The position numbers were made by a program, and so were the translations under genes. Shown here piece by piece: positions 3,114 to 28,000 of a stretch of DNA of 30,799 bases. How positions within the stretch are numbered: position 1 is the first letter of the stretch; every line of letters starts with the position of its first letter. Origin of the DNA: a virus; the IMG/VR virus record IMGVR_UViG_3300037189_010985, positions 1 to 30,799 of that record. One strand, written 5' to 3'. Below the pieces are notes generated by a model that saw only the letters and a list, made by a program, of their open reading frames with translations, was not told the DNA's origin and made no database searches.

Positions 3114-3187
3114 TCGCGTGGGACTTGGAAGGAAATCGCAATGAGAAAAACGAATAGCGAAAGAATGGTGATATTCTCCGGGGTCAT
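3110..3187 (-). CDS. Tiny membrane peptide, 25 aa
   Basis: ATG at 3185-3187 overlaps the stop of the 77-residue gene (ATGA), and the stop overlaps the start of the next tiny gene. The product is MTPENITILSLFVFLIAI followed by SFQVPRE, almost wholly a single membrane segment of about 15 residues. It is too short to be assigned to a family. Two membrane peptides in direct tandem suggest a two-part unit, but this is inference. Support is the coupled start and stop and the clear hydrophobic pattern in this frame. Confidence 0.45.
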   Translation of the reverse strand: MTPENITILSLFVFLIAISFQVPRE

Positions 3188-3417
3188 GCTTTGAGGAGTT
3201 GGGCTTTACGGCGTTTGAAATGCTGGCTCATGGAGCTTGCGAACGTGGAGGGGTTGGGATTGACGGGGATTCCCTTCTCAACGAGGATGGTGTGGATCTC
3301 GCGGAGGGTGTAGCCCTTGGCGTGAAGGGTTGCCGCTGGTGCGACTAGATCCCGGTAGGCCATGCGCTTTTTCGAGGGCATCGAATCGGCTAGAGATACG
3401 AGGGCTTGAAGGTTCAT
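3184..3417 (-). CDS. Small possible DNA-binding protein, 77 aa
   Basis: ATG at 3415-3417 overlaps the stop of the second RHH gene (ATGA), so translation is probably coupled. The middle of the protein, LHAKGYTLREIHTILVEKGI, reads as helix-turn-helix, followed by FASSMSQHFKRRKAQLLKA, a basic helix at the C-terminus. This resembles small plasmid and phage accessory DNA-binding proteins, but I cannot name the family. It is the third possible DNA-binding protein in a row, which suits a regulatory cluster at the front of the early operon. A palindromic operator candidate lies 12 bases upstream of its start. Confidence 0.65.
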   Translation of the reverse strand: MNLQALVSLADSMPSKKRMAYRDLVAPAATLHAKGYTLREIHTILVEKGIPVNPNPSTFASSMSQHFKRRKAQLLKA

Positions 3418-3803: not shown

Positions 3804-3848
3804 CACCTTTTTTAAAAAATCTTTGATTGCTCGTAGAGCCTTACAGAA

Positions 3849-4439: not shown

Positions 4440-4475
4440 ATGAAAAGAATGAACGGCATAAAATGGTGGCAGAAA

Positions 4476-4498
4476 TGCCGTAACTGATTGCCGTAACT
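4476..4498. repeat. Left arm-type site pair of attP
   Basis: TGCCGTAACT occurs at 4476-4485 and 4489-4498, a direct repeat with 13-bp spacing, 40 bp to the left of the tRNA-like core. A second pair with the same GCCGTAA heptamer and the same 13-bp spacing stands on the other side of the core. Short repeats flanking a core are the usual arm sites for the integrase N-terminal domain. Confidence 0.6.
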
Positions 4499-4537
4499 TT
4501 TTGCCTATCGACCACAAAACCTGTATTTATAAGGGTT

Positions 4538-4579
4538 TACCGGCGGTCGGGTTCGAACCGACACTTTTACGATTAAAAG
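4538..4579 (-). other. attP core: 3' half of a tRNA-Lys(TTT) gene
   Basis: Read on the minus strand: anticodon loop CTTTTAA (4579-4573, anticodon TTT), then TCGTA, a five-base variable region, the T arm GTCGG-TTCGAAC-CCGAC with a perfect stem, the acceptor 3' strand CGCCGGT and discriminator A at 4538. No CCA is encoded. The 5' side of the anticodon stem does not pair, and no 5' half is present, so this is not a working tRNA gene. Tyrosine-recombinase phages often carry such a tRNA 3' end to restore the host gene after integration, and the crossover commonly lies in the anticodon loop. The integrase gene starts 90 bases away. Confidence 0.8.
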
Positions 4580-4607
4580 AGATAACAGAGTAAAACGGGC
4601 CTCCTGT

Positions 4608-4659
4608 TCATGCTTTTCCTTGCTTTTTCATGCTTTTCAGCCGTAAATAAAAGCCGTAA
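4608..4659. repeat. Right arm-type site pair and 20-bp-spaced repeats of attP
   Basis: TTCATGCTTTTC occurs at 4608-4619 and 4628-4639 (20-bp period), followed by GCCGTAA at 4640-4646 and 4653-4659 (13-bp spacing). The GCCGTAA pair mirrors the one left of the core. The 20-bp-spaced repeats could be extra integrase, host-factor or excisionase sites. The region ends 10 bases before the integrase ATG, so binding may also control that gene. Confidence 0.55.
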
Positions 4660-4669
4660 GAAAAACCCT

Positions 4670-5851
4670 ATGGCAAGCGTCCGAAAATCCAAAATCTCCC
4701 CGTTCTGGCTTGCCGATATGCGGGTATGGAAATCCGTCCCCACGCATCCCCGTGGAGGGTATATCTCCAAGACCACGAAATCCACCAAGGTAAGCGTCAA
4801 GGAATCCCGCCGAACCGCTGAAGCCGTAGCCGATGAAATGGAGAGGACGGCGAACGAATTGCGGGGGAAAGCCGGGATGGATCGCCTCACGTTTGAGAAA
4901 AGGCTTGAATCCCTCATGCGCCTTGCCGGGGCAGAGGTTCCACGCAAGGCTACAACGTGGAATGATTTTGCCGCCCAATACCTCTCGGAGTCGGATGCCG
5001 GGGAAAGCTCCCTCGTCAAATACCGGGGCGAGATAAAGCAGTTTGCGGATTACCTTGGGGCTAGGGCATCCCATCCCCTGCGGGATCTTACCCATGAGGA
5101 CATAACGGGATTTTACTCATCCCTTCAATCTTCAGGCCGCACCAAGGCAACCGCTACAAACACAACCAAAACAATCAAGGCCGTCCTGAAGAGGGCCTTC
5201 CTGCTTGGCTACCTAGACAAGAATCCCGCCGACTTGGTGAAGTTCGCTAGGGGTAACGGGGTCACGGATACAAGCCGGCAGCCGTTTAGCAGGGATGAGG
5301 TGGCGCGGATTCTAGCAATCGTAAAGGGAGAGGAGAGGATCTTTGTCCTGTTCGGGTTGACCTTTGGCCTCCGGGCTACCGATGCCGCAAGGCGATCTTT
5401 TGAGGAAATCCACGAACAAGACGGGATGCGGGTCATCTCATTCGTCCCCCAAAAGAAAAGCCGCATGGGAAGGAAGGTGACACTTCCTGTCGTCGGGGAA
5501 CTGGAAACCCTCATACCAAAGACGGGAACCGGGTTCATCACTCCATCACTTGCCGGGATGAAACACCCCGGAAGAAAATTTGAGACGGCAATGGATCTTG
5601 CCGGGATTGATCGAAAGGTTACGAAAGGCAAGGGCAAGGGGAGGTCTATCAGCGCGAAAACTTTCCACTCCCTGCGGCATACGGCTTCAACATTCCTCAT
5701 GGAAAGCGGGGCAGATTCCCGGATGAGGCAACTTGTTTGCGACCATGATGATCCCCGGATGAACGCAAAATATACCCATTCAACAATCGCAGAAATGGGC
5801 AAGGCGATAACGAAAGCCCTTGCTCCAGCAACCAAAAAGAAGAAGAAGTGA
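4670..5851 (+). CDS. int: Tyrosine integrase
   Basis: A 393-residue site-specific recombinase of the phage lambda Int/XerD class. I use the ATG at 4670-4672 (MASVRKSKISPFWLADMRVW); an upstream start would run into the att repeats. Residues 1-60 are an arm-binding type N-terminus, 95-195 the SAM-like core-binding domain, and 205-385 the catalytic domain. Catalytic residues visible are R235 (GLRATD), H333 and R336 (HSLRH), H359 and the nucleophile Y368 (KYTHS). The tail is lysine-rich. The gene stands beside the tRNA-Lys core and reads away from the early block. No excisionase-like gene is obvious next to it; one of the small DNA-binding proteins may serve. Confidence 0.93.
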   Translation: MASVRKSKISPFWLADMRVWKSVPTHPRGGYISKTTKSTKVSVKESRRTAEAVADEMERTANELRGKAGMDRLTFEKRLESLMRLAGAEVPRKATTWNDFAAQYLSESDAGESSLVKYRGEIKQFADYLGARASHPLRDLTHEDITGFYSSLQSSGRTKATATNTTKTIKAVLKRAFLLGYLDKNPADLVKFARGNGVTDTSRQPFSRDEVARILAIVKGEERIFVLFGLTFGLRATDAARRSFEEIHEQDGMRVISFVPQKKSRMGRKVTLPVVGELETLIPKTGTGFITPSLAGMKHPGRKFETAMDLAGIDRKVTKGKGKGRSISAKTFHSLRHTASTFLMESGADSRMRQLVCDHDDPRMNAKYTHSTIAEMGKAITKALAPATKKKKK

Positions 5852-6515: not shown

Positions 6516-9500
6516 CTACTGACTCCGCAAAGCCTCGCCATAGCGTTGCAGGATCAACCTCCTCCTCGCTATCGCGGCGTTGTAGATTTGCCTGTCTGAC
6601 GGGGATAGAGACTGAATGAACTGCATCTCATTGTGACTGTTGTTCGTGAAATTGCTCATCACGCTCTTTTGGAATCCTGAATAAATTGTTCCAAGGTTCA
6701 TGCCCTGATTCTGAAGATTGCGGATTTGCTTCCTAGCCGCCGCAAAGTCTCCATCCTCCAAGGCGTAGCGGAGTTGTTGATATGGGGTTACTGGGTATCT
6801 TCCCCTTGGCATATGTTGAGGATGATTCTTTTGCATCCACTCTCTAGCCATGGGATAGACTTCCGTGATGGGGCTATACCGATGCACTTGGATTCCAGCA
6901 CTAGAAAGGATCTGTTCTAGTGGGGAAATTGGATTGTTCGCGCTCGTCTGCGTCCACGAACGGGTAAGGGATTGAACAGGCATAGGCAACGCCCCGGTAA
7001 GGATGTCTTTAATCGCAGTTCCAAAGGTGACTTGTTCACCACGATAATTAACTTGATAAACTCCTTCTTGAATTGATTTGCCAACAACAGGAGAAACCCT
7101 TCCAGAAATAAACGCTTGAGGATCGTGGACGAGTTTCCAAACGTCCTCGGCGACAGTCCTGACCCCATAATAGCGGTTGCCAATCTTGACTTCAAACGGG
7201 TGACTCCAATCAGGCTCCCCGTTCTCTAGTGTATTCACGATCTGAGCGAGGATGATGTTGGTAGCCGCACCAAAGGCGAGGGCTGAAAGTTGCTCTCCCC
7301 CGGCCTTGCTTCCAAGTCCCCTAATCGCTTGCGCCACAAACTTGCCTCGGGCTTCCAAGAAGTCGGGGGCAAGAAGGGCAATCTGCAAGATATGTTGCAG
7401 GGTTGGATTCCTGCCCATGTCGGCATAATTCAAGTGACCATAAGCGGCGTTCGCCTGTCTTGCTGAAAGCCTCATCACTTGTTCCTCTGTGATCTTTCCA
7501 GAAGCTAGATCCTTGGCGAATCGCTTCATATTGCGTTCCTGAATATGCTCGGCGGTCTTGAGCTTCAGGCCGGGGATATACCTCTCAAAAAGCATCCTCT
7601 GATATGCCTCTAGCCCATCTGCAAGGGCCTTGGTTCCTTTGCCGCCAAGTCCATTTGGAATCTTCCGGGCAAGGATGGTGACAAGGTTCCTATCCCCTCC
7701 CCCCAGCCCTTCCATGAATAGGGCTTGGCTGATCTTGTCGTGAGCCAGCATCAAGCCAGCTTGCGCCCATTTCATTTGTTTGGGATCACGCAAGTCGATC
7801 TTCTCGATTCCAGACATCATATTCACCCTGTGATAAGCGGCGTGAATACCCTCCTGCACCTGATGGAATGGTGATGCCGTGAACATCGTTGCCTTTGCGT
7901 ATCCCTGAACGTCATCAAACAGGAACTTGGCAAATCCCTTCAGCCCATTGTGAATCGGGTTATCATTCCTCTCATTCCACCAATCGCGGATCGCAGAACG
8001 TCCCAAGACATTCCGCAAGTCCTTGAAGATTGCCGGGTGAACTTCCAGATTGCCTTTAGAGAGGATGTTGCTTCCCTCGTCGGTTTTTCCAGCAAAGGCC
8101 CAATCTTTCAAGGCGGGTTGGTCTAGGCTCCTGTAATCGGTATGATTCTCATCCCGCATATCCGGGAAAACCAAGTGGGTCTTTCCATTCTCAGTAATGG
8201 TCGGGCTACCGCCTCCCGTTGGGGGAGATAAAAGCCTCCTTCCGTCAGCGTCCTTGCCCTTGGAAAGATCATGCACAAACCGCCGCGAGTTAATCGCGTT
8301 GTTCATGTCATTCATATAAACCCCTAGAAGGTTGGCAATGTCCTTGGTCTTGGGCTTGTAACCAAGTTGCTCCCCGGTGAAGTGATCTTGAATCTCCCTT
8401 TCCTTGGCGAATTTGAAGTTATCCGAAAGCCTCTTCATGCTAGATCCTGCGGGTCTAGCGGGTTCGGATTTCCAAAGGTGGGGAACGTAGTTTTCAATCG
8501 TCCCGATGTCGATTCCCCATTTGAGGCCGCGATTGCGTAGAACACGGAAAGCATCCGTTACCCTCTTGGCAACCTCTAGCTCCTCCGGGGATAGGTTTGC
8601 CGCCGCCTCATAGCCCTTACGCAACTCCTTATCCTTGGAGAGTCCAGCCCTTGCTAGGAGAAGGTCACGGCTTCCCCCGGCTTCAATCCAGTTCGTAATT
8701 GCCGCCCTGCGGATGGGGTCTTTGATCTTCTGCTTGATGGAGTGAACAACGCGATTGATTTCATCGGTTGAATACATATTCCGGGCTGTCCACTCGGCTT
8801 TTGCCCTAACGTAATCATTGACTTCAGGGATTCCCTTCAAAGCGCGAATCATGCGGTCATACGTTTTCCCGGCCTTCTCTCGGAAAGATGGTGCACGTGG
8901 GATAACCTCCCCCGTCCTTGGATCGCGATATTCCCCATCCTTGAGGGTTTGTGCGATACGTTCATCTTCAGGGTTAAAGAACTTCCTGGCTTTCTCTCCC
9001 CTCGCCTCTTGCGGTGCATCCTGTTGGAAGAAATGGTTATCATCATTCCCGGCAATCTGCCTGATCGCTTCGGCCCTAGCCTCATTGTCCCCCTTGGTGT
9101 ATTGCACAACGTGAACCCCCTTTGCCTCTAGCTTTGCAATAACCTCCGGGCTTGTTCCTTCAGGAACTACCGCCCCGGTGAACTCATGCAATCCAACCCC
9201 CCTTTGAATCTTTGATTCAAAATACTCGGTTGGGAGATTGCGGAGTTTTTCTAGGTAATTGCGCCATTGTTCAAAAGGTGCGCCATCGGGATACATCTCC
9301 CGCAGATACTTGATATTTTCCGATCCACCTTCAGCAAGGGCCTTCAGGTCATCGGAAATAGCATCCATGTAGAATGTCGGCTTTGAACTGCGAACCTTCA
9401 ACGCCTCTTCCGCGATTTTCTCAAACTCTCCATTTACCTCTTCCTTGAGGCGTTCCATCTCGGATTCAGAAACGATATGATCCCGGTGATTCCCGATTTG

Positions 9501-12500
9501 CTCAAGAGTTCGGAACTGCTTTGCCGCTTTGCTCCTGATGCTACCCACCCCGTAATTGAATCCCTCCCCGTCCCGTAGCTCCTTGGTCATCATCTTGACG
9601 ACATTATCAAGGGTATGCGGGATGTATCGGCGGTTTCCTGAAGGGGTGTATCCGTTGAAGATTTGCTCCTTTTCGGTAGCTCCTGAGTCGGCAATGGCTT
9701 TAGAAAGCCAGTTCTTGAAATCCTCTTTTACTTCTTTGTTCTCATCTACAAAGTTACGGATGTCCCATCTTGCGGATTGAGCGCGGTATCTTTCATCCCC
9801 TGAAGGGCTAAAAGGAACGTCCTGGATAAGTCCAGTATCAGCAAGGAAAGCCGCAATGAAGATTTCCGATTCAGAGAATCGCTTCTCCATCGGCTTATCT
9901 GCGTTTTCGGATTCAAAACTTACAAAGAAATCTTTACGCAAGGATTCAGGCATCTTGTCCATTGCCTTCACCAGAATATCGCGCAACTTACCAGCCGCTT
10001 TCCTATCGGCTATGGTGTAGGAAATACTTGGATACCGGGGGCTATAAACATCAGCGTTGAACGTCTTTGCCTTCTTGTCGGCCTTGGGATCAATCAGGTC
10101 TTTAGGAGCAACAAGGGTAATGTCGCCAAAGCTATTGAAGCGGGATCTATCTGCCCGGATGACGGCAATAGAGGGAGCCGCAAGCCCATTGACTTTCAGA
10201 ATGTTCTTCAGCTTTGCTTCATCCGTATTGTGAACGGCAACAAGGTTCTTCTCTGTGTCTTGCTGGAAGAAGTTCTGCCCAACCTCTTCAATACTCTGGC
10301 GCATCTCTGGCGTGATCTCGACTTTCCAGATTTGGGTTTCATCCAAAACGCTTCCCTCGCTATCCATTATTTGTTTTTGAGAGAACTGGCTTTCATCAGG
10401 AGTGAGGCTACCTTGCTCCACCTTTGCGCCCCACTTCTTGACGTACTTGCCAACCTCTTTAGGAAGGATCTGATCGTAGAAGCCCTTCATGCCTTCGCCG
10501 CCTACTTTTAGGGCTTGGCCTTTAATCGAAACCCATCCTGCACCATCAGGGGTTCCTTCGATCAGTTTTTTAGCAAGATCCTTTCCGATTAAATCTTCCA
10601 GTTCCTTTGGTTCGGCTTTTCTTTCGATCTCTGGTTCCTGATAAACATTAGGATCAACATTCCTTTTCCATGCTTGGAAGTATTTGTGTTCTGGGTTGTA
10701 CCTGACTTCAGAAACTTGCTTACTCAAGTCATAGCGTTCGGCTTGCGTCTCTCCGCTAGTCCACCCAATCCACTCTTTGCCACTTGCGATTGCATCACGC
10801 AATGCCCTCTTGAACATCTGGACTGACCAATCCTTGCGGAAAGGTGCGTCTGGGACTGCATTAGGTTGATTAAGTAGTTTCCCTTCTTCTGCCAATGCCT
10901 TAAACTCTGGATTTGTTTCCTCAAGTCTTAGTAGCTCGTCAACATTACTAACCCCATTTTCTTTAGAGATTTCGTGTATCCGTTTTCTGATTTCTTTCAG
11001 ACGTTCAGGATTTTGATACCCCTTTTCCCGTCCCTCCTGATGCCTGTCAGACTGAATCTCTTCGATAAAGAGACCCGGCTTTCCAGACGAATCGGTGCGC
11101 TCGTCTAGCCTCATGTGGGCTACATAGTTTGGGATGTCTGTGAAGTGGGAAGATGTGTAATTCTTGCCCGGCTCCCGTTGAATTGAATAAAGCTCCCTAG
11201 CTTCCTTGGAATCTTCACCAGTAAAGTTTTCTTTGAGCCATTGCTCATAAGGTTTTTTTACCTTAACCTCCGGCATCGTCAGCACAACCTCCCTGTAGTT
11301 CTCTCCGTTGGGGAGGGTGTAATTAAAATACTTGGGTCTGATCGTTTGATTTGGGAATCCCTCAACAGGTTCTTCCTTTAACGTCCTCTCTTCAAACTTC
11401 ACCGCACCCTCGTTCTTGAGATAATCAAGCACCTCCTCCTTGGTGACACTCTTTTTGCCCTCCAAAAATCCATCCAGATTGCTCCATTTGATCTCGTCAG
11501 GCTTTACGCCACTTCCCTTTGCAGGGTCGATAATCGCCCGAATCTGATCCACGCTTGCCTTGTTCGGCATCTTGTCGGAAATCGTGCGTTGAAGTTGAGA
11601 GTAAAAGCCGGGTTCTACTTCGTGCCTGTCTGCGTCCCGCTGATAAAAATCATGGCTAGGGTTCGGCTGATCGTATGGGCCTAGCTCCGTATTATCCCCC
11701 ATGTGGAACTTTATCAGGGCATCCGCTAGACGATTCCTTGCAGTCTCAACGTCACGCACAAAGTCACCCGACATCTTCCATCCCGTGAGTTCGGACAGAA
11801 CTTGGTTCAGCCACTTGACTACGCGAGTCGCAAAATCCTTGAAGGCTTTAGGATTGCGATCCTGCAACTTTTCCAAGAATGATGGGTCTTGGAATGAGTC
11901 ACCCAAGAAATCCGCGATATGCTCGTCAAAGAAACGGTGTGGCTTATACCCTGCCGCCCTATATTTCTCGTTAAGCCCATTCCAATCCTTGATGAGTGGG
12001 AGGAGTTCATCGCGTAAAGAAACAGCCAGCTTTGGGGCTTGCATCTCAATATGATGCCAAAGCTCATGCCCAAGCGTGAAAAGATGCGGCCTTGCACCGT
12101 CAACATTCAGGAAGATGTATTCCCCTAGCCTCGGGTCTTTTCCTACTACTCCGTTGATTCCGTCTCCCGGAAGCCCCTTGTATGCAACGATCTTTTTTCC
12201 AAAAATCTGGGCCAGCCTTGCGGCGAATAAAAACCTTGGGTTTTTCTTTAGTTCAGAAAGTTCTCGATCACTCGCGGGGGCAAACCTTTCTCGGTTATTC
12301 TTTCGTGGAGTAGTCGAATTGAGCAGCTGAATCGCTTCGTCGGAGCGTCGAGGGCTTTCCAAAACTCCTGCCGCCTCGCCCAAGTCATTTGCTTCAGGTG
12401 CTTTCGGAACTTCATGTTGGAAGAAACTGCCGCCGTTCTGCTTGATTGTCAATTCCCGTTCAATCCGACGATTCTCTTCCCTCCATGCTTCCTTCTCGGC

Positions 12501-14819
12501 CTCGGCTTTTTCCTTGGCCTTCTTCTTTTTCATCTCCTTGGCCCATGCCGCAGGGTCAACTTGCTTCAGGATGTCTAGCCGCTTCTGTTCTTTGATTGCG
12601 GCCTTCTGCTTGGCGATCTCAGCTTTCTGTGCCTTCCCAATCGCCACGGCTTGCTTGCTTGCCCGGTCGATATGGCTCCAAAGATCAGAGATAGAGGAAT
12701 CAGGCGGGATATACCCTAGATCAATCAATGCCTGATGAGCTTGGTCAATAGACTGATTTCCACCGAAAATCTTGTTGTGTGATACAGCGGAGAGCTTCGG
12801 AGCATCGTCATACTCAGCGGCGTTATTCGTGCCGCGCACCTTGTCGAGTCGCGCCTGTGCTGAACGGGAACGGATCGGGTTTTCAAGGAGGTAGGCGATA
12901 ACGGGATCTTCCCCAAAGAAGCCAAGGGAAACGCTACGCTTGTCCTTGTTGTCATTAGCGATAGGGGATTTATCCTCTGAAAGAACAATCTCTCTCTGCT
13001 TTGATAGTTCGGCTTGTCTAAGCCTGATCTCATCAATCCGATCTTGAATCAACTTAGCCCCTATCGTTCCGGGTGAGGCTTTTGGAAGCTCCTCAATAAC
13101 AAGCCTATTTTGCTCATCCGTGAGGGCTTGAAGCTCTTCATCTGCTGGATTGCTATAAGTATCAGCCTCCTCATCAGAAAGATCATCCATCCGATCTTCT
13201 GGAACGGGTTGCTTGGGAGCTGGCGCTTCCTCCTCCGTAGCCGTGAGCCATTCATGTTTCTCGTTTGGATCGTCCTGCTTGGGAGCCTTGGAGGGATCGT
13301 AAGGCTTCTGAGCCGTGGCGCTATCGCCTGAAATTGCCTCTGATGAAGTTTGTTCTCCTGCTGCTCTTGATTGTGCATCTAGGTTTCCGCGATCAGCTAC
13401 AGGGGCTTCTGTGGCTGGAGCATGAAAAGCGCCAAAAGCTCCCGTTGCTAGTCCCATTGGAACCGCATCAATGGCAAGTTGCTTCAGCTCTTCAGGGACA
13501 TAGGGTTTCCCGCTGATCCATGAGTTGACAACATTCTGAGCCGCAATCACTGGCATCCCGGTAAGCCATCCCATTGCGCCTTGCTGGACTACCCGCAAGA
13601 CGGGATTGGCAATCTTACTCTGCATTGAGAGAGGAAGCGCCCCGGTTACGGCTGTAGTTACGGCAGACGCGACACCTTTAGAGACGGCTAGGAATTCACC
13701 ATCTCCGTTCTCGACTGCCGCTTGTGCTGCCTCATCGCCAGCTTTCAAGGCGGGAAGCGCCATGGACTGAATGCCATGCTTGATCGAAGGCCATGCATCC
13801 TTGATAGCCGTGAAGAGTCCGGGGGCTTCTTCCGTTGCCAGCTTTGCGGCGTTCGCTTCAGCTCCTAGCCCTCCCGTTGCAAGCATCGCGGGAAGGTCTG
13901 CCGCCATAGATCCAAGCCCCTGCCCGATCTGACCAACTGCTCCCTGCTCCTCATTGGCTTGCGTCGAGTTGGCTTTGATTCCTGCATCATAGGAATCCAT
14001 CAGGTCTTTCCAGTAGGAGTAAAAATCTGAACTACCCCCCAATCCCTTGACGGCTTTATCGGTGTAGTAGGCGATTGTTGCGGGGGCTGATGCAATGACC
14101 TTATCAGTCTGGTAGGTTGATTGATTGATTCCCCTGCCAACTGATTGCCAGAAACCAACCTCTTCTTTTTTGGGCTTATCAAGATCGGTAACAGGCAATG
14201 CCCTAGCGATCGGCATCCCGGTTTCATTGTCCTTCCATTTCTGAAGGCCCAACTGATCGGCAATTGAATCCGATACTTGAGGGAGGCCATCGGCGGGTGA
14301 GGAAGATTGGTCATTCTCTCCCCCATTGCTAGTTAGCACAAAGCCGGGTGGTAGCTTTGCCGCCGATGGTTGTTGGGTAGGCGAACCTTCCAACTGAAAG
14401 CCGGGAGGGAGTCCCGTTGAGGAATGCCCAAGGATGCGGTATTGCATCGGGCTTTTCCCGTCTCCTCCAAGGATCGAATTAGCCCCATGCGTGAGGTCGA
14501 TAGCCGGGGAGCCGTCCCGCGCCTCTACCCATGAGGCGGGTCCTTTGTCCACAATCGGAGCAACGATCTTCTTCCCGGTAGCAGGGTTGGTGACTTCCAC
14601 CAAAGCCTTATGAGCCGCACCCTCATCGCCAAATGCTTCACGCAAGACATGACGGGGAAGAGATACCCCGACAAGATCCGGGTTGTTCGTATCATCCCCC
14701 CATGCCCCTACCCCGTTATCTTCAGGGTCATTATATCCAAACTCGGAAGCTAGTGCCGCTGTGGTGGCATCAGATGGTTCATTCAGGACAAAACCGGGAG
14801 GAAGTTGGGAAGATGCCAT
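6516..14819 (-). CDS. Giant polyvalent virion protein, 2767 aa (ejection/internal protein)
   Basis: The ATG at 14817-14819 is preferred over a TTG two codons earlier. The N-terminus (residues 26-131) looks like an RlpA-type double-psi barrel (DKGP at 91-94, IDLT at 107-110), a fold found in peptidoglycan-cleaving enzymes. The motif LPPGF occurs at 6, 137 and 156. A stretch of about 200 residues with small and hydrophobic residues follows. HELWHH at 918-923 is a zinc-metallopeptidase motif, with a likely third ligand in FDEHIADF. Around 1250-1350 (FIEEIQSD, WTSGETQAERYDLS) and 1523-1605 (VAVHNTDE, PSIAV, YSPRYP) lie domains common in large phage proteins, of unknown function to me. Residues 1935-2700 form a long helical C-terminal region. 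It is probably carried in the capsid and injected, opening the cell wall and acting early in the host. Confidence 0.85.
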   Translation of the reverse strand: MASSQLPPGFVLNEPSDATTAALASEFGYNDPEDNGVGAWGDDTNNPDLVGVSLPRHVLREAFGDEGAAHKALVEVTNPATGKKIVAPIVDKGPASWVEARDGSPAIDLTHGANSILGGDGKSPMQYRILGHSSTGLPPGFQLEGSPTQQPSAAKLPPGFVLTSNGGENDQSSSPADGLPQVSDSIADQLGLQKWKDNETGMPIARALPVTDLDKPKKEEVGFWQSVGRGINQSTYQTDKVIASAPATIAYYTDKAVKGLGGSSDFYSYWKDLMDSYDAGIKANSTQANEEQGAVGQIGQGLGSMAADLPAMLATGGLGAEANAAKLATEEAPGLFTAIKDAWPSIKHGIQSMALPALKAGDEAAQAAVENGDGEFLAVSKGVASAVTTAVTGALPLSMQSKIANPVLRVVQQGAMGWLTGMPVIAAQNVVNSWISGKPYVPEELKQLAIDAVPMGLATGAFGAFHAPATEAPVADRGNLDAQSRAAGEQTSSEAISGDSATAQKPYDPSKAPKQDDPNEKHEWLTATEEEAPAPKQPVPEDRMDDLSDEEADTYSNPADEELQALTDEQNRLVIEELPKASPGTIGAKLIQDRIDEIRLRQAELSKQREIVLSEDKSPIANDNKDKRSVSLGFFGEDPVIAYLLENPIRSRSAQARLDKVRGTNNAAEYDDAPKLSAVSHNKIFGGNQSIDQAHQALIDLGYIPPDSSISDLWSHIDRASKQAVAIGKAQKAEIAKQKAAIKEQKRLDILKQVDPAAWAKEMKKKKAKEKAEAEKEAWREENRRIERELTIKQNGGSFFQHEVPKAPEANDLGEAAGVLESPRRSDEAIQLLNSTTPRKNNRERFAPASDRELSELKKNPRFLFAARLAQIFGKKIVAYKGLPGDGINGVVGKDPRLGEYIFLNVDGARPHLFTLGHELWHHIEMQAPKLAVSLRDELLPLIKDWNGLNEKYRAAGYKPHRFFDEHIADFLGDSFQDPSFLEKLQDRNPKAFKDFATRVVKWLNQVLSELTGWKMSGDFVRDVETARNRLADALIKFHMGDNTELGPYDQPNPSHDFYQRDADRHEVEPGFYSQLQRTISDKMPNKASVDQIRAIIDPAKGSGVKPDEIKWSNLDGFLEGKKSVTKEEVLDYLKNEGAVKFEERTLKEEPVEGFPNQTIRPKYFNYTLPNGENYREVVLTMPEVKVKKPYEQWLKENFTGEDSKEARELYSIQREPGKNYTSSHFTDIPNYVAHMRLDERTDSSGKPGLFIEEIQSDRHQEGREKGYQNPERLKEIRKRIHEISKENGVSNVDELLRLEETNPEFKALAEEGKLLNQPNAVPDAPFRKDWSVQMFKRALRDAIASGKEWIGWTSGETQAERYDLSKQVSEVRYNPEHKYFQAWKRNVDPNVYQEPEIERKAEPKELEDLIGKDLAKKLIEGTPDGAGWVSIKGQALKVGGEGMKGFYDQILPKEVGKYVKKWGAKVEQGSLTPDESQFSQKQIMDSEGSVLDETQIWKVEITPEMRQSIEEVGQNFFQQDTEKNLVAVHNTDEAKLKNILKVNGLAAPSIAVIRADRSRFNSFGDITLVAPKDLIDPKADKKAKTFNADVYSPRYPSISYTIADRKAAGKLRDILVKAMDKMPESLRKDFFVSFESENADKPMEKRFSESEIFIAAFLADTGLIQDVPFSPSGDERYRAQSARWDIRNFVDENKEVKEDFKNWLSKAIADSGATEKEQIFNGYTPSGNRRYIPHTLDNVVKMMTKELRDGEGFNYGVGSIRSKAAKQFRTLEQIGNHRDHIVSESEMERLKEEVNGEFEKIAEEALKVRSSKPTFYMDAISDDLKALAEGGSENIKYLREMYPDGAPFEQWRNYLEKLRNLPTEYFESKIQRGVGLHEFTGAVVPEGTSPEVIAKLEAKGVHVVQYTKGDNEARAEAIRQIAGNDDNHFFQQDAPQEARGEKARKFFNPEDERIAQTLKDGEYRDPRTGEVIPRAPSFREKAGKTYDRMIRALKGIPEVNDYVRAKAEWTARNMYSTDEINRVVHSIKQKIKDPIRRAAITNWIEAGGSRDLLLARAGLSKDKELRKGYEAAANLSPEELEVAKRVTDAFRVLRNRGLKWGIDIGTIENYVPHLWKSEPARPAGSSMKRLSDNFKFAKEREIQDHFTGEQLGYKPKTKDIANLLGVYMNDMNNAINSRRFVHDLSKGKDADGRRLLSPPTGGGSPTITENGKTHLVFPDMRDENHTDYRSLDQPALKDWAFAGKTDEGSNILSKGNLEVHPAIFKDLRNVLGRSAIRDWWNERNDNPIHNGLKGFAKFLFDDVQGYAKATMFTASPFHQVQEGIHAAYHRVNMMSGIEKIDLRDPKQMKWAQAGLMLAHDKISQALFMEGLGGGDRNLVTILARKIPNGLGGKGTKALADGLEAYQRMLFERYIPGLKLKTAEHIQERNMKRFAKDLASGKITEEQVMRLSARQANAAYGHLNYADMGRNPTLQHILQIALLAPDFLEARGKFVAQAIRGLGSKAGGEQLSALAFGAATNIILAQIVNTLENGEPDWSHPFEVKIGNRYYGVRTVAEDVWKLVHDPQAFISGRVSPVVGKSIQEGVYQVNYRGEQVTFGTAIKDILTGALPMPVQSLTRSWTQTSANNPISPLEQILSSAGIQVHRYSPITEVYPMAREWMQKNHPQHMPRGRYPVTPYQQLRYALEDGDFAAARKQIRNLQNQGMNLGTIYSGFQKSVMSNFTNNSHNEMQFIQSLSPSDRQIYNAAIARRRLILQRYGEALRSQ

Positions 14820-14825
14820 ATGCAA

Positions 14826-25979: not shown

Positions 25980-28000
25980 TGCGCTGAAATCTGGTTGGGC
26001 CTTCCCTGCTTTTCAGGAAGTGGCTGGGCCTGAAGATCGGTAGGAACAGGGGCGGTCATACCGGGAGGGAGTTGCGGAGCGGGTGCGCCAGCGTCCTGGC
26101 TTACGGCAGGATTTACGGCCTTGCCGGGAAAAGGAATGAAACCCTGTTGCTGTTGGGCTTGCTGGTGCATCGCGGCGATATTCTTCACAATGGCAATCGC
26201 CTTGGCTTGGAGAGCATGAGCCGCCTTGGGGTTGCTCTTGGAAAGGGCTTCAATATGACCTTTGAGACGAGCGGAAAGGGCCTGTTGGCCTTCCGGGGTG
26301 AGTTGCTTGCCCTGCTTGGCTTCCCTTGCAAGATATTCCACGAGGAAATTCCCCTGAACATCGTTGTCGTCGGAGGGATCAATGGGAACAGCCATACCAT
26401 CCTCAAGGGATGGAATCGCCAGCATGATACGCTTTACCTGATCCTGTTGTGCCGTTCCCGGATCACGATAGACCTTCTGGACAAGACCCGGCTCGTCGAG
26501 TTCAAGGATGCTCTTGGTAAGTTCTCCCTGATCGACAAAGGGAGACCCGGCAAACATCTGGAAACGATTGACGGCCTTCTTGAGTCGTCCCATCTGATTC
26601 CATGAGTCGGAAGATCCGTTGGGCTGGATGGTAAGAACTGCGTCGAAGGTTGCCTTGTCAGCGGTCTTTAACTCCATCTTCTGAAGGTATTCAAGATCCT
26701 GATCGTATTGGATGAGGAGACTCCAAGCCTGATTGTAGAGTGCGCCTAGCTGTCGGCGGGTCATCCGGGAGCGCATATCAACGATTGTGTTCATCGTCGC
26801 GCTAATCTGTTCTACCTCGGTAGCAGTCTTGCGTTCCTTGGTATTGATCTGTTGACCCGTTCCAAAGTCAGGGACAGCAATCCTCTGCTCTGCCACCATG
26901 CGGGTAGAGACCATTTCCTGATCCCAAGACATCGGGGGTGCGCCACGATCTACCGGGGAAATCTTGAAAGGAAGGATGTCGCCGGGACGCATACGGATAT
27001 TACCGGCATTGGGAATGTCCCGATCAGCGTAGAAGAGAGGGCGATTGTAATAGCTCATCGCGTCATGCTTCTCGTTCCACATCTTGCAAAGGGATGATTC
27101 GAAGCTGGCAAGGATTTCCGTCACCCCGCGAGGGCTATAGTAGCTCTTATCCGTCTCCTCCATGGTGAAGTCGACAAAGGGGGCTTGCTCATGCTTGTAG
27201 GGAAGCCCATAGGTGTCCCGGATAGGATCTTGATCGGCATAGGGAGAAATCGTAGTGACTTCCCATCCGTCTTTGGTGCGCTGGTAAATCTCCCAAACGA
27301 TGATGGTATCAGGGATAGAAGTATGGGTGATGCCTTCCCTGATGCGCTTGGTATTCTCTAGGTTGTTGGCTTCATTGTCGGCCTTGCCTCCGGTAATTCG
27401 CTTGATGAAATCCTCGTCCTGCTTGCGGTTCTCCGCACCGGGGCCATTCTTATACTTCCAAGGGGAAAGGTGATAAACATGAACAATCCTGTCGGCGTTC
27501 TGAAGCTCGTCGGTATCAGCCGGGACTATCAGGTAAATAGGTTCTACGGAGTCAAACCGAACCTGTTTCTTTTCGGTGTCCCAAGTGATCTTAACGATCC
27601 CGCGCCCATTCTGAAGGAGTCCATCAAAGACGTAGGCAATTTCCCTCTCAAGGTTGCTCTTGTGCTTGAGCTTGTAATCAAACCACCAAGCGGCTTGCTC
27701 GACTTGATCGGACATCTGCGGGTCTTTAGAGATAAAATCCGCTAGGCGATCAGTTGCGAAGAGTTGGTTGATATAGAACGGCTTGAACTTCTCAATGACT
27801 GTATCGACTAGCGGAAAGTGCATATCAGCCGCACCGGGGAACGGCTTGACCTTACGGCGAAGTCCATCCCGGCGCATCTGATACCAGACTGCTTGACGAT
27901 CAGCCCAAACACGGCGGTTCTTGATGTCATCGCGCACAGCGGCGATTAACTCCGTGAGGGAAGTATCAACCTTTAGCTCGTCTGGTTTTTGATCGTTCAT
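25976..28000 (-). CDS. Portal protein, 674 aa
   Basis: The length and order fit a podovirus portal of the P22 kind. Characteristic parts include an N-terminal clip/wing opening (VWADRQAVWYQMRRDGLRRK, then PFPGAADMHFPLVDTVIEKF), the segment YVFDGLLQNGRGIVKITWDT, and the strand NIRMRPGDILPFK, then a helical C-terminal half ending in a Gln-rich barrel-like tail (MHQQAQQQQGFIPFPGK). It follows the large terminase with three bases between. The portal forms the DNA entry and exit ring of the head and docks the terminase and the tail adaptor. Confidence 0.85.
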   Translation of the reverse strand: MNDQKPDELKVDTSLTELIAAVRDDIKNRRVWADRQAVWYQMRRDGLRRKVKPFPGAADMHFPLVDTVIEKFKPFYINQLFATDRLADFISKDPQMSDQVEQAAWWFDYKLKHKSNLEREIAYVFDGLLQNGRGIVKITWDTEKKQVRFDSVEPIYLIVPADTDELQNADRIVHVYHLSPWKYKNGPGAENRKQDEDFIKRITGGKADNEANNLENTKRIREGITHTSIPDTIIVWEIYQRTKDGWEVTTISPYADQDPIRDTYGLPYKHEQAPFVDFTMEETDKSYYSPRGVTEILASFESSLCKMWNEKHDAMSYYNRPLFYADRDIPNAGNIRMRPGDILPFKISPVDRGAPPMSWDQEMVSTRMVAEQRIAVPDFGTGQQINTKERKTATEVEQISATMNTIVDMRSRMTRRQLGALYNQAWSLLIQYDQDLEYLQKMELKTADKATFDAVLTIQPNGSSDSWNQMGRLKKAVNRFQMFAGSPFVDQGELTKSILELDEPGLVQKVYRDPGTAQQDQVKRIMLAIPSLEDGMAVPIDPSDDNDVQGNFLVEYLAREAKQGKQLTPEGQQALSARLKGHIEALSKSNPKAAHALQAKAIAIVKNIAAMHQQAQQQQGFIPFPGKAVNPAVSQDAGAPAPQLPPGMTAPVPTDLQAQPLPEKQGRPNQISAQ

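Follow-up and report, generated by a model that had tools for sequence, protein, structure and literature searches.

Positions 4477-4659 of the window (the whole stretch of DNA analysed here, 30,799 bases long, which is also the whole of its virus record) very probably constitute an attP in its intact form, belonging to a temperate phage with a Verrucomicrobiota host, at which an adjoining integrase would read GCCGTAA arm repeats and exchange strands with tRNA-Leu(CAA) in the T-loop. The attP site itself is real, and ordinary in kind. In the mechanism we propose, the N-terminal domain of the integrase would bind the GCCGTAA pairs, and its core-binding and catalytic domains would bind the inverted repeat that the T-stem forms in the tRNA-like core; strands would then be exchanged with a host tRNA-Leu(CAA) gene, inside the 7-bp T-loop of both partners. 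The integrated state would have, adjoining the left arm, a complete tRNA-Leu gene whose 3' end comes from the phage and, adjoining the right arm and the integrase gene (int), a displaced host 3' fragment.

Other phage-type genes in the window encode a portal-like protein (weak SU10-portal match), a major head protein, a Sak4-like protein and a methyltransferase. The initial annotation placed phage genes on both sides of the attP, and the gene content of the phage behind L031, a viral relative, bears this out for the left flank as well: left of its attP lie a Sak4 gene (74% identical), a gene matching positions 1006-1470 of the window, and a counterpart of the small open reading frame (ORF) at 3184-3417. 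The same annotation took the phage genome to be unintegrated, and since both arms in the window surround a single core, this is indeed the case. The small ORF (3184-3417, - strand), left of attP, has tblastn matches in most viral relatives, and family searches with it gave no match above chance; as a guess, it might encode a regulator or a directionality factor. A 2,769-amino-acid ORF on the - strand (6516-14825) occupies over a quarter of the genome; its sole match is phrog_22978, a family of unknown function.

The gene adjoining the attP encodes a tyrosine integrase of 393 amino acids (4670-5851, + strand; PF00589, 5.3e-12; phrog_1, 1.6e-33), whose catalytic residues (R235, K263, H333, R336, H359 and Y368) are invariant in 22 relatives. 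A structure model based on 22 sequences (mean pLDDT 80, pTM 0.49), which replaced an earlier one from nine sequences (pLDDT 63), shows residues 3-63 folded into three strands and one helix, ahead of the core-binding and catalytic domains. Lambda integrase aligns to this model over residues 1 to 366 (Z 14.7, 299 residues), with a large overall rmsd of 20.2 that we take to reflect domain placement; none of the arm-binding families in Pfam matched the integrase N-terminus. Annotated phage records yielded three weak integrase matches, one of them from an Akkermansia phage.

The core is flanked by two pairs of GCCGTAA repeats on the + strand, at 4477/4490 and 4640/4653, the copies in each pair lying 13 bp apart; these coordinates and this spacing reproduce exactly those initially annotated. 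The left arm-type pair, GCCGTAACTGATTGCCGTAA (P arm; 4477-4496, + strand), and the right arm-type pair, GCCGTAAATAAAAGCCGTAA (P' arm; 4640-4659, + strand), which stands immediately before int, match each other at 16 of 20 positions. The pairs had been described as mirror-placed, but all four copies share one orientation, making them direct repeats, and the pair centres lie ~67 bp to the left and ~96 bp to the right of the T-loop. Across the window GCCGTAA occurs 13 times, versus 2.25 expected from shuffles. Between the core and the right arm, the exact 12-bp repeat TTCATGCTTTTC was recovered with its previously noted 20-bp spacing, in copies at 4607 and 4627 (4607-4638, + strand), and is a possible accessory-protein site.

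To compare attPs, relatives of the integrase were taken from IMG/VR. A check for GCCGTAA pairs in related phages found them identical on both sides in L029, which encodes the closest phage integrase (65% identical): its pairs, at 3813/3826 and 3979/3992, keep the 13-bp register, the left one occupies the same place as in the window, and they flank a different tRNA 3' piece. The right-hand pair is also kept directly before int in L030. More distant relatives have different repeats at the equivalent places (GTGCTAACT, GTGTCAACT, GTGATAACT and TGGATAACT), and the register is 13 bp in those viral relatives where an exact repeat revealed the left pair. The relatives thus support a layout in which paired arm-type sites flank a core derived from a tRNA, next to an integrase gene.

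Co-variation of the two arms was assessed in 21 elements (15 viral and six integrated), by comparing the best 20-mer shared between the left and right sides of each element with that obtained for swapped partners. Over 15 divergent representatives, the mean arm match was 15.9/20 within elements, versus 13.2 when partners were permuted and 12.6 when the sequence was shuffled, and the observed value was reached in none of 20,000 permutations. By this test the repeats of both sides change together, as they should if left and right are recognised by a single protein. That protein is presumably the integrase, which would bind the GCCGTAA pairs.

A pure arm-site reading leaves unexplained three more GCCGTAA pairs, all on the - strand and 12 bp apart, that lie outside the attP and count against the attP explanation. 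One of these, which resembles the right arm site, is intergenic (501-519), just before the ATG of a 93-amino-acid ORF (213-494) for which family searches gave no known family; the others (13646-13664 and 26101-26119) are each inside a gene, and for these two within-gene pairs synonymous codon shuffles predict a total of 0.004. If the pairs were operators of a phage regulator and not integrase arm sites, their place around the core being secondary, this would account for the pair just before another ORF, for the others upstream of int and near a divergent gene, and for the excess of within-gene pairs over the codon-shuffle expectation. We consider this improbable, as the pairs of relatives stand at attP and nowhere else in the stretches examined (the whole 22.8-kb contig of L029 has no such extra pairs), mark both ends of integrated elements, and co-vary between left and right. 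The two roles could also coexist, as in KplE1, where binding was shown to repress intS (PMC2951348): the right pair of the window ends 10 bp before the int start codon (4670), so repression of int is possible and, by analogy, right-arm binding may have this effect.

The tRNA 3' end between the GCCGTAA pairs is not part of a whole tRNA gene as judged by ARAGORN. It had been assigned to the 3' half of tRNA-Lys(TTT), an identification that we replace: the core (4538-4565, - strand) corresponds to the 3' end of tRNA-Leu(CAA), with its T-arm and acceptor; the complement of 4538-4565, AGTGTCGGTTCGAACCCGACCGCCGGTA (28 nt), is exactly the 3' end of that gene in two genomes (G584 and G593), and the 3' half of a Verrucomicrobiota tRNA-Lys(TTT) is quite unlike it. 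A search of 388 Verrucomicrobiota genomes with a tRNA pattern, at up to three mismatches, returned nothing; a shorter T-arm pattern, tried afterwards, led to tRNA-Leu. In searches with the T-arm and acceptor, the same sequence was found to end tRNA-Leu(CAA) in G335 and, less exactly, in G079, and 24 of 213 genomes of the order of G335 match at three mismatches or fewer, all complete genes being tRNA-Leu(CAA). The T-arm and acceptor of L031 (integrase 58% identical) are as in the tRNA-Leu(CAA) of two further genomes (G586 and G589), so this phage probably targets tRNA-Leu(CAA) too.

The supposed TTT anticodon was rejected, since these letters belong to a hairpin, CTTTTA-ATCG-TAAAAG (4564-4579, - strand), that resembles the variable arm of leucine tRNA and stands in its place. 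An attP targeting tRNA-Lys(TTT), with exchange in the anticodon loop, would fit the likeness of CTTTTAATC to a lysine anticodon loop and the common use of this loop by tyrosine integrases (PMC8371274); it is nonetheless scarcely credible, given that the T-arm and acceptor match tRNA-Leu(CAA) and not tRNA-Lys, and that the blocks shared in integrated relatives miss the anticodon loop, except partly for Gln.

From these sequence matches we infer that tRNA-Leu(CAA) is the gene used in the phage's own host, and that this host belongs to the Verrucomicrobiota. Exact 36- and 40-nt core patterns had no match in genome contigs or viral contigs, and no lysogen or host of the window phage was found in searches of genome contigs, viral contigs, the 388 Verrucomicrobiota genomes and the order of G335. 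A pattern joining the T-loop to ACAGAGTAAAACG gave five matches in genome contigs, none beside a tRNA 3' end or this integrase, and these were read as chance. Separately, an 18.6-kb stretch of G582 (G582:C1:12462 and 31081; L163 and L150) runs from a whole tRNA-Leu(CAA) to a displaced 3' part starting at the anticodon region, and is another element in the same target gene.

Relatives of the integrase (E < 1e-40) are present in 17 of the 388 Verrucomicrobiota genomes, most of which have a tRNA 3' fragment directly upstream of int. In five integrated relatives, a whole tRNA gene stands at the far end (Gln(CTG) in G219, Cys(GCA) in G089, Pro(GGG) in G120, Gly(CCC) in G297 and Glu(TTC) in G140), followed by the left arm pair, and the other end carries a displaced tRNA 3' fragment with the right arm and int, an arrangement that attP x attB recombination should produce. 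The left arm was not found in G259, which was also examined as an integrated element; this weighs against the attP explanation, as do the absence of a Pfam arm-binding match and of a lysogen or host of the window phage. The pair register in integrated elements is 10 to 13 bp. Shared blocks measure 28-34 bp, except for Gln, where the block is 46 bp with one mismatch; in five of the six integrated elements with a tRNA match, they start ~2 nt ahead of the T-stem and continue as far as the 3' end of the tRNA.

These blocks begin near tRNA position 47 and exclude most of the anticodon side, pointing to the T-loop and not, as the initial annotation had it, to the anticodon loop as the place of strand exchange. 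In the window, the T-loop (4551-4557, - strand) is a 7-bp segment between the T-stem inverted repeats and the likely strand-exchange region. Several lines of evidence make it the best guess: T-stem and T-loop together are laid out like a core site, as an inverted repeat whose halves are 7 bp apart; shared blocks lie as described; three viral relatives (L058, L050 and L074) have the right core half in common and differ in the left, the switch falling at the T-loop; mutation data led to the T-loop of tRNA-Ala being proposed as the exchange site of mycobacteriophage Ms6 (PMC1762012); and bacterial integrases use three places in tRNA genes, of which the T stem-loop is one (PMC8371274). Exchange is thus most likely in the T-loop, with presumptive cleavage points.

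An attP in tRNA-Leu(CAA) whose exchange took place in the variable arm or on the anticodon side would agree with the extension of tRNA similarity through the variable-arm-like hairpin of the window, and with the G582 element, whose shared block reaches the anticodon loop. We think it unlikely, while giving it some weight: the shared block ends ~2 nt before the T-stem in all but one of the six integrated relatives with a tRNA match, related attPs for the same tRNA have little in common past this point, and half-site swaps break at the T-loop.

The conserved element AACAGAGTAAAACG (4584-4597, + strand) is found to the right of the T-loop, 34 bp from its centre, a spacing fixed in relatives: in every measured relative having both, ACAGAG keeps this distance and side, and in most it additionally occurs 23 bp left of the T-loop centre. 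A pattern of T-loop plus ACAGAG element detected 21 viral contigs, with identical spacing in all, and loosening the T-loop part added no viral contigs. In all readable contigs the pattern is directly upstream of a related integrase, one locus ending soon after the attP. Some relatives have cores without a T-loop, which counts against the attP and T-loop explanation.

In four relatives (L050, L074, L052 and L053), the core upstream of int is missing the acceptor side of the tRNA or the T-loop and keeps the flanking ACAGAG elements; these are possibly phages that left tRNA targets. A direct repeat, ACAGAGTAAAA, flanks the core 57 bp apart in L002 (~5855 and 5909) and likewise in most relatives, even where the core has no T-arm.

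A bolder reading, which we offer tentatively and think doubtful, is that a widespread Verrucomicrobiota integrase family uses the T-arm as a universal tRNA landmark together with a modular attP, in which arm repeats evolve in step with the N-terminus of the integrase and core halves swap at the T-loop. Related phages would thereby shift between tRNA genes such as those for Leu, Gly and Cys, some leaving tRNA genes altogether, and the extra pairs (501-519 and the two within genes) would let the integrase affect phage gene expression.

This analysis provides a sequence-level anatomy of an integration system from Verrucomicrobiota, a phylum with few studied phages, in which the arm sites are defined through co-variation, not by eye, and the target is corrected to tRNA-Leu(CAA). 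Integrases that are ~41-65% identical aim at different tRNA genes and keep the T-arm as a landmark; target switching is therefore testable by a swap of the ~28-bp core. The cassette formed by attP and int (4440-5851) could serve as an integration tool for Verrucomicrobiota.

As in lambda, the window encodes a tyrosine integrase with N-terminal, core-binding and catalytic domains, and arm-type sites flank the core. Lambda attB lies outside tRNA genes, whereas the window system would target one, and its arm sites, unlike those of lambda, are two direct pairs with copies 13 bp apart. In IntS/attL of the KplE1 prophage (PMC2951348), arm-type sites likewise lie between the tRNA core and int, overlapping the expected int promoter region; that system uses tRNA-Arg (argW) of E. 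coli, and the repression of int that was measured there is one that we infer for the window. Mycobacteriophage Tweety, which uses tRNA-Lys, shares with the window an intergenic attP directly upstream of int, and its phage core restores the tRNA gene; its shared block of ~47 bp extends into the anticodon stem, whereas that of the window is ~28 bp (PMC2884959). Ms6 (PMC1762012) resembles the window in its short core (26 bp, 28 in the window) at the T-arm and 3' end of a tRNA gene, and in the 7-base T-loop proposed as the strand-exchange site, and small changes in its core redirect integration. Its target is tRNA-Ala in mycobacteria, whereas that of the window would be, judging from sequence alone, tRNA-Leu(CAA) in a Verrucomicrobiota-type host.
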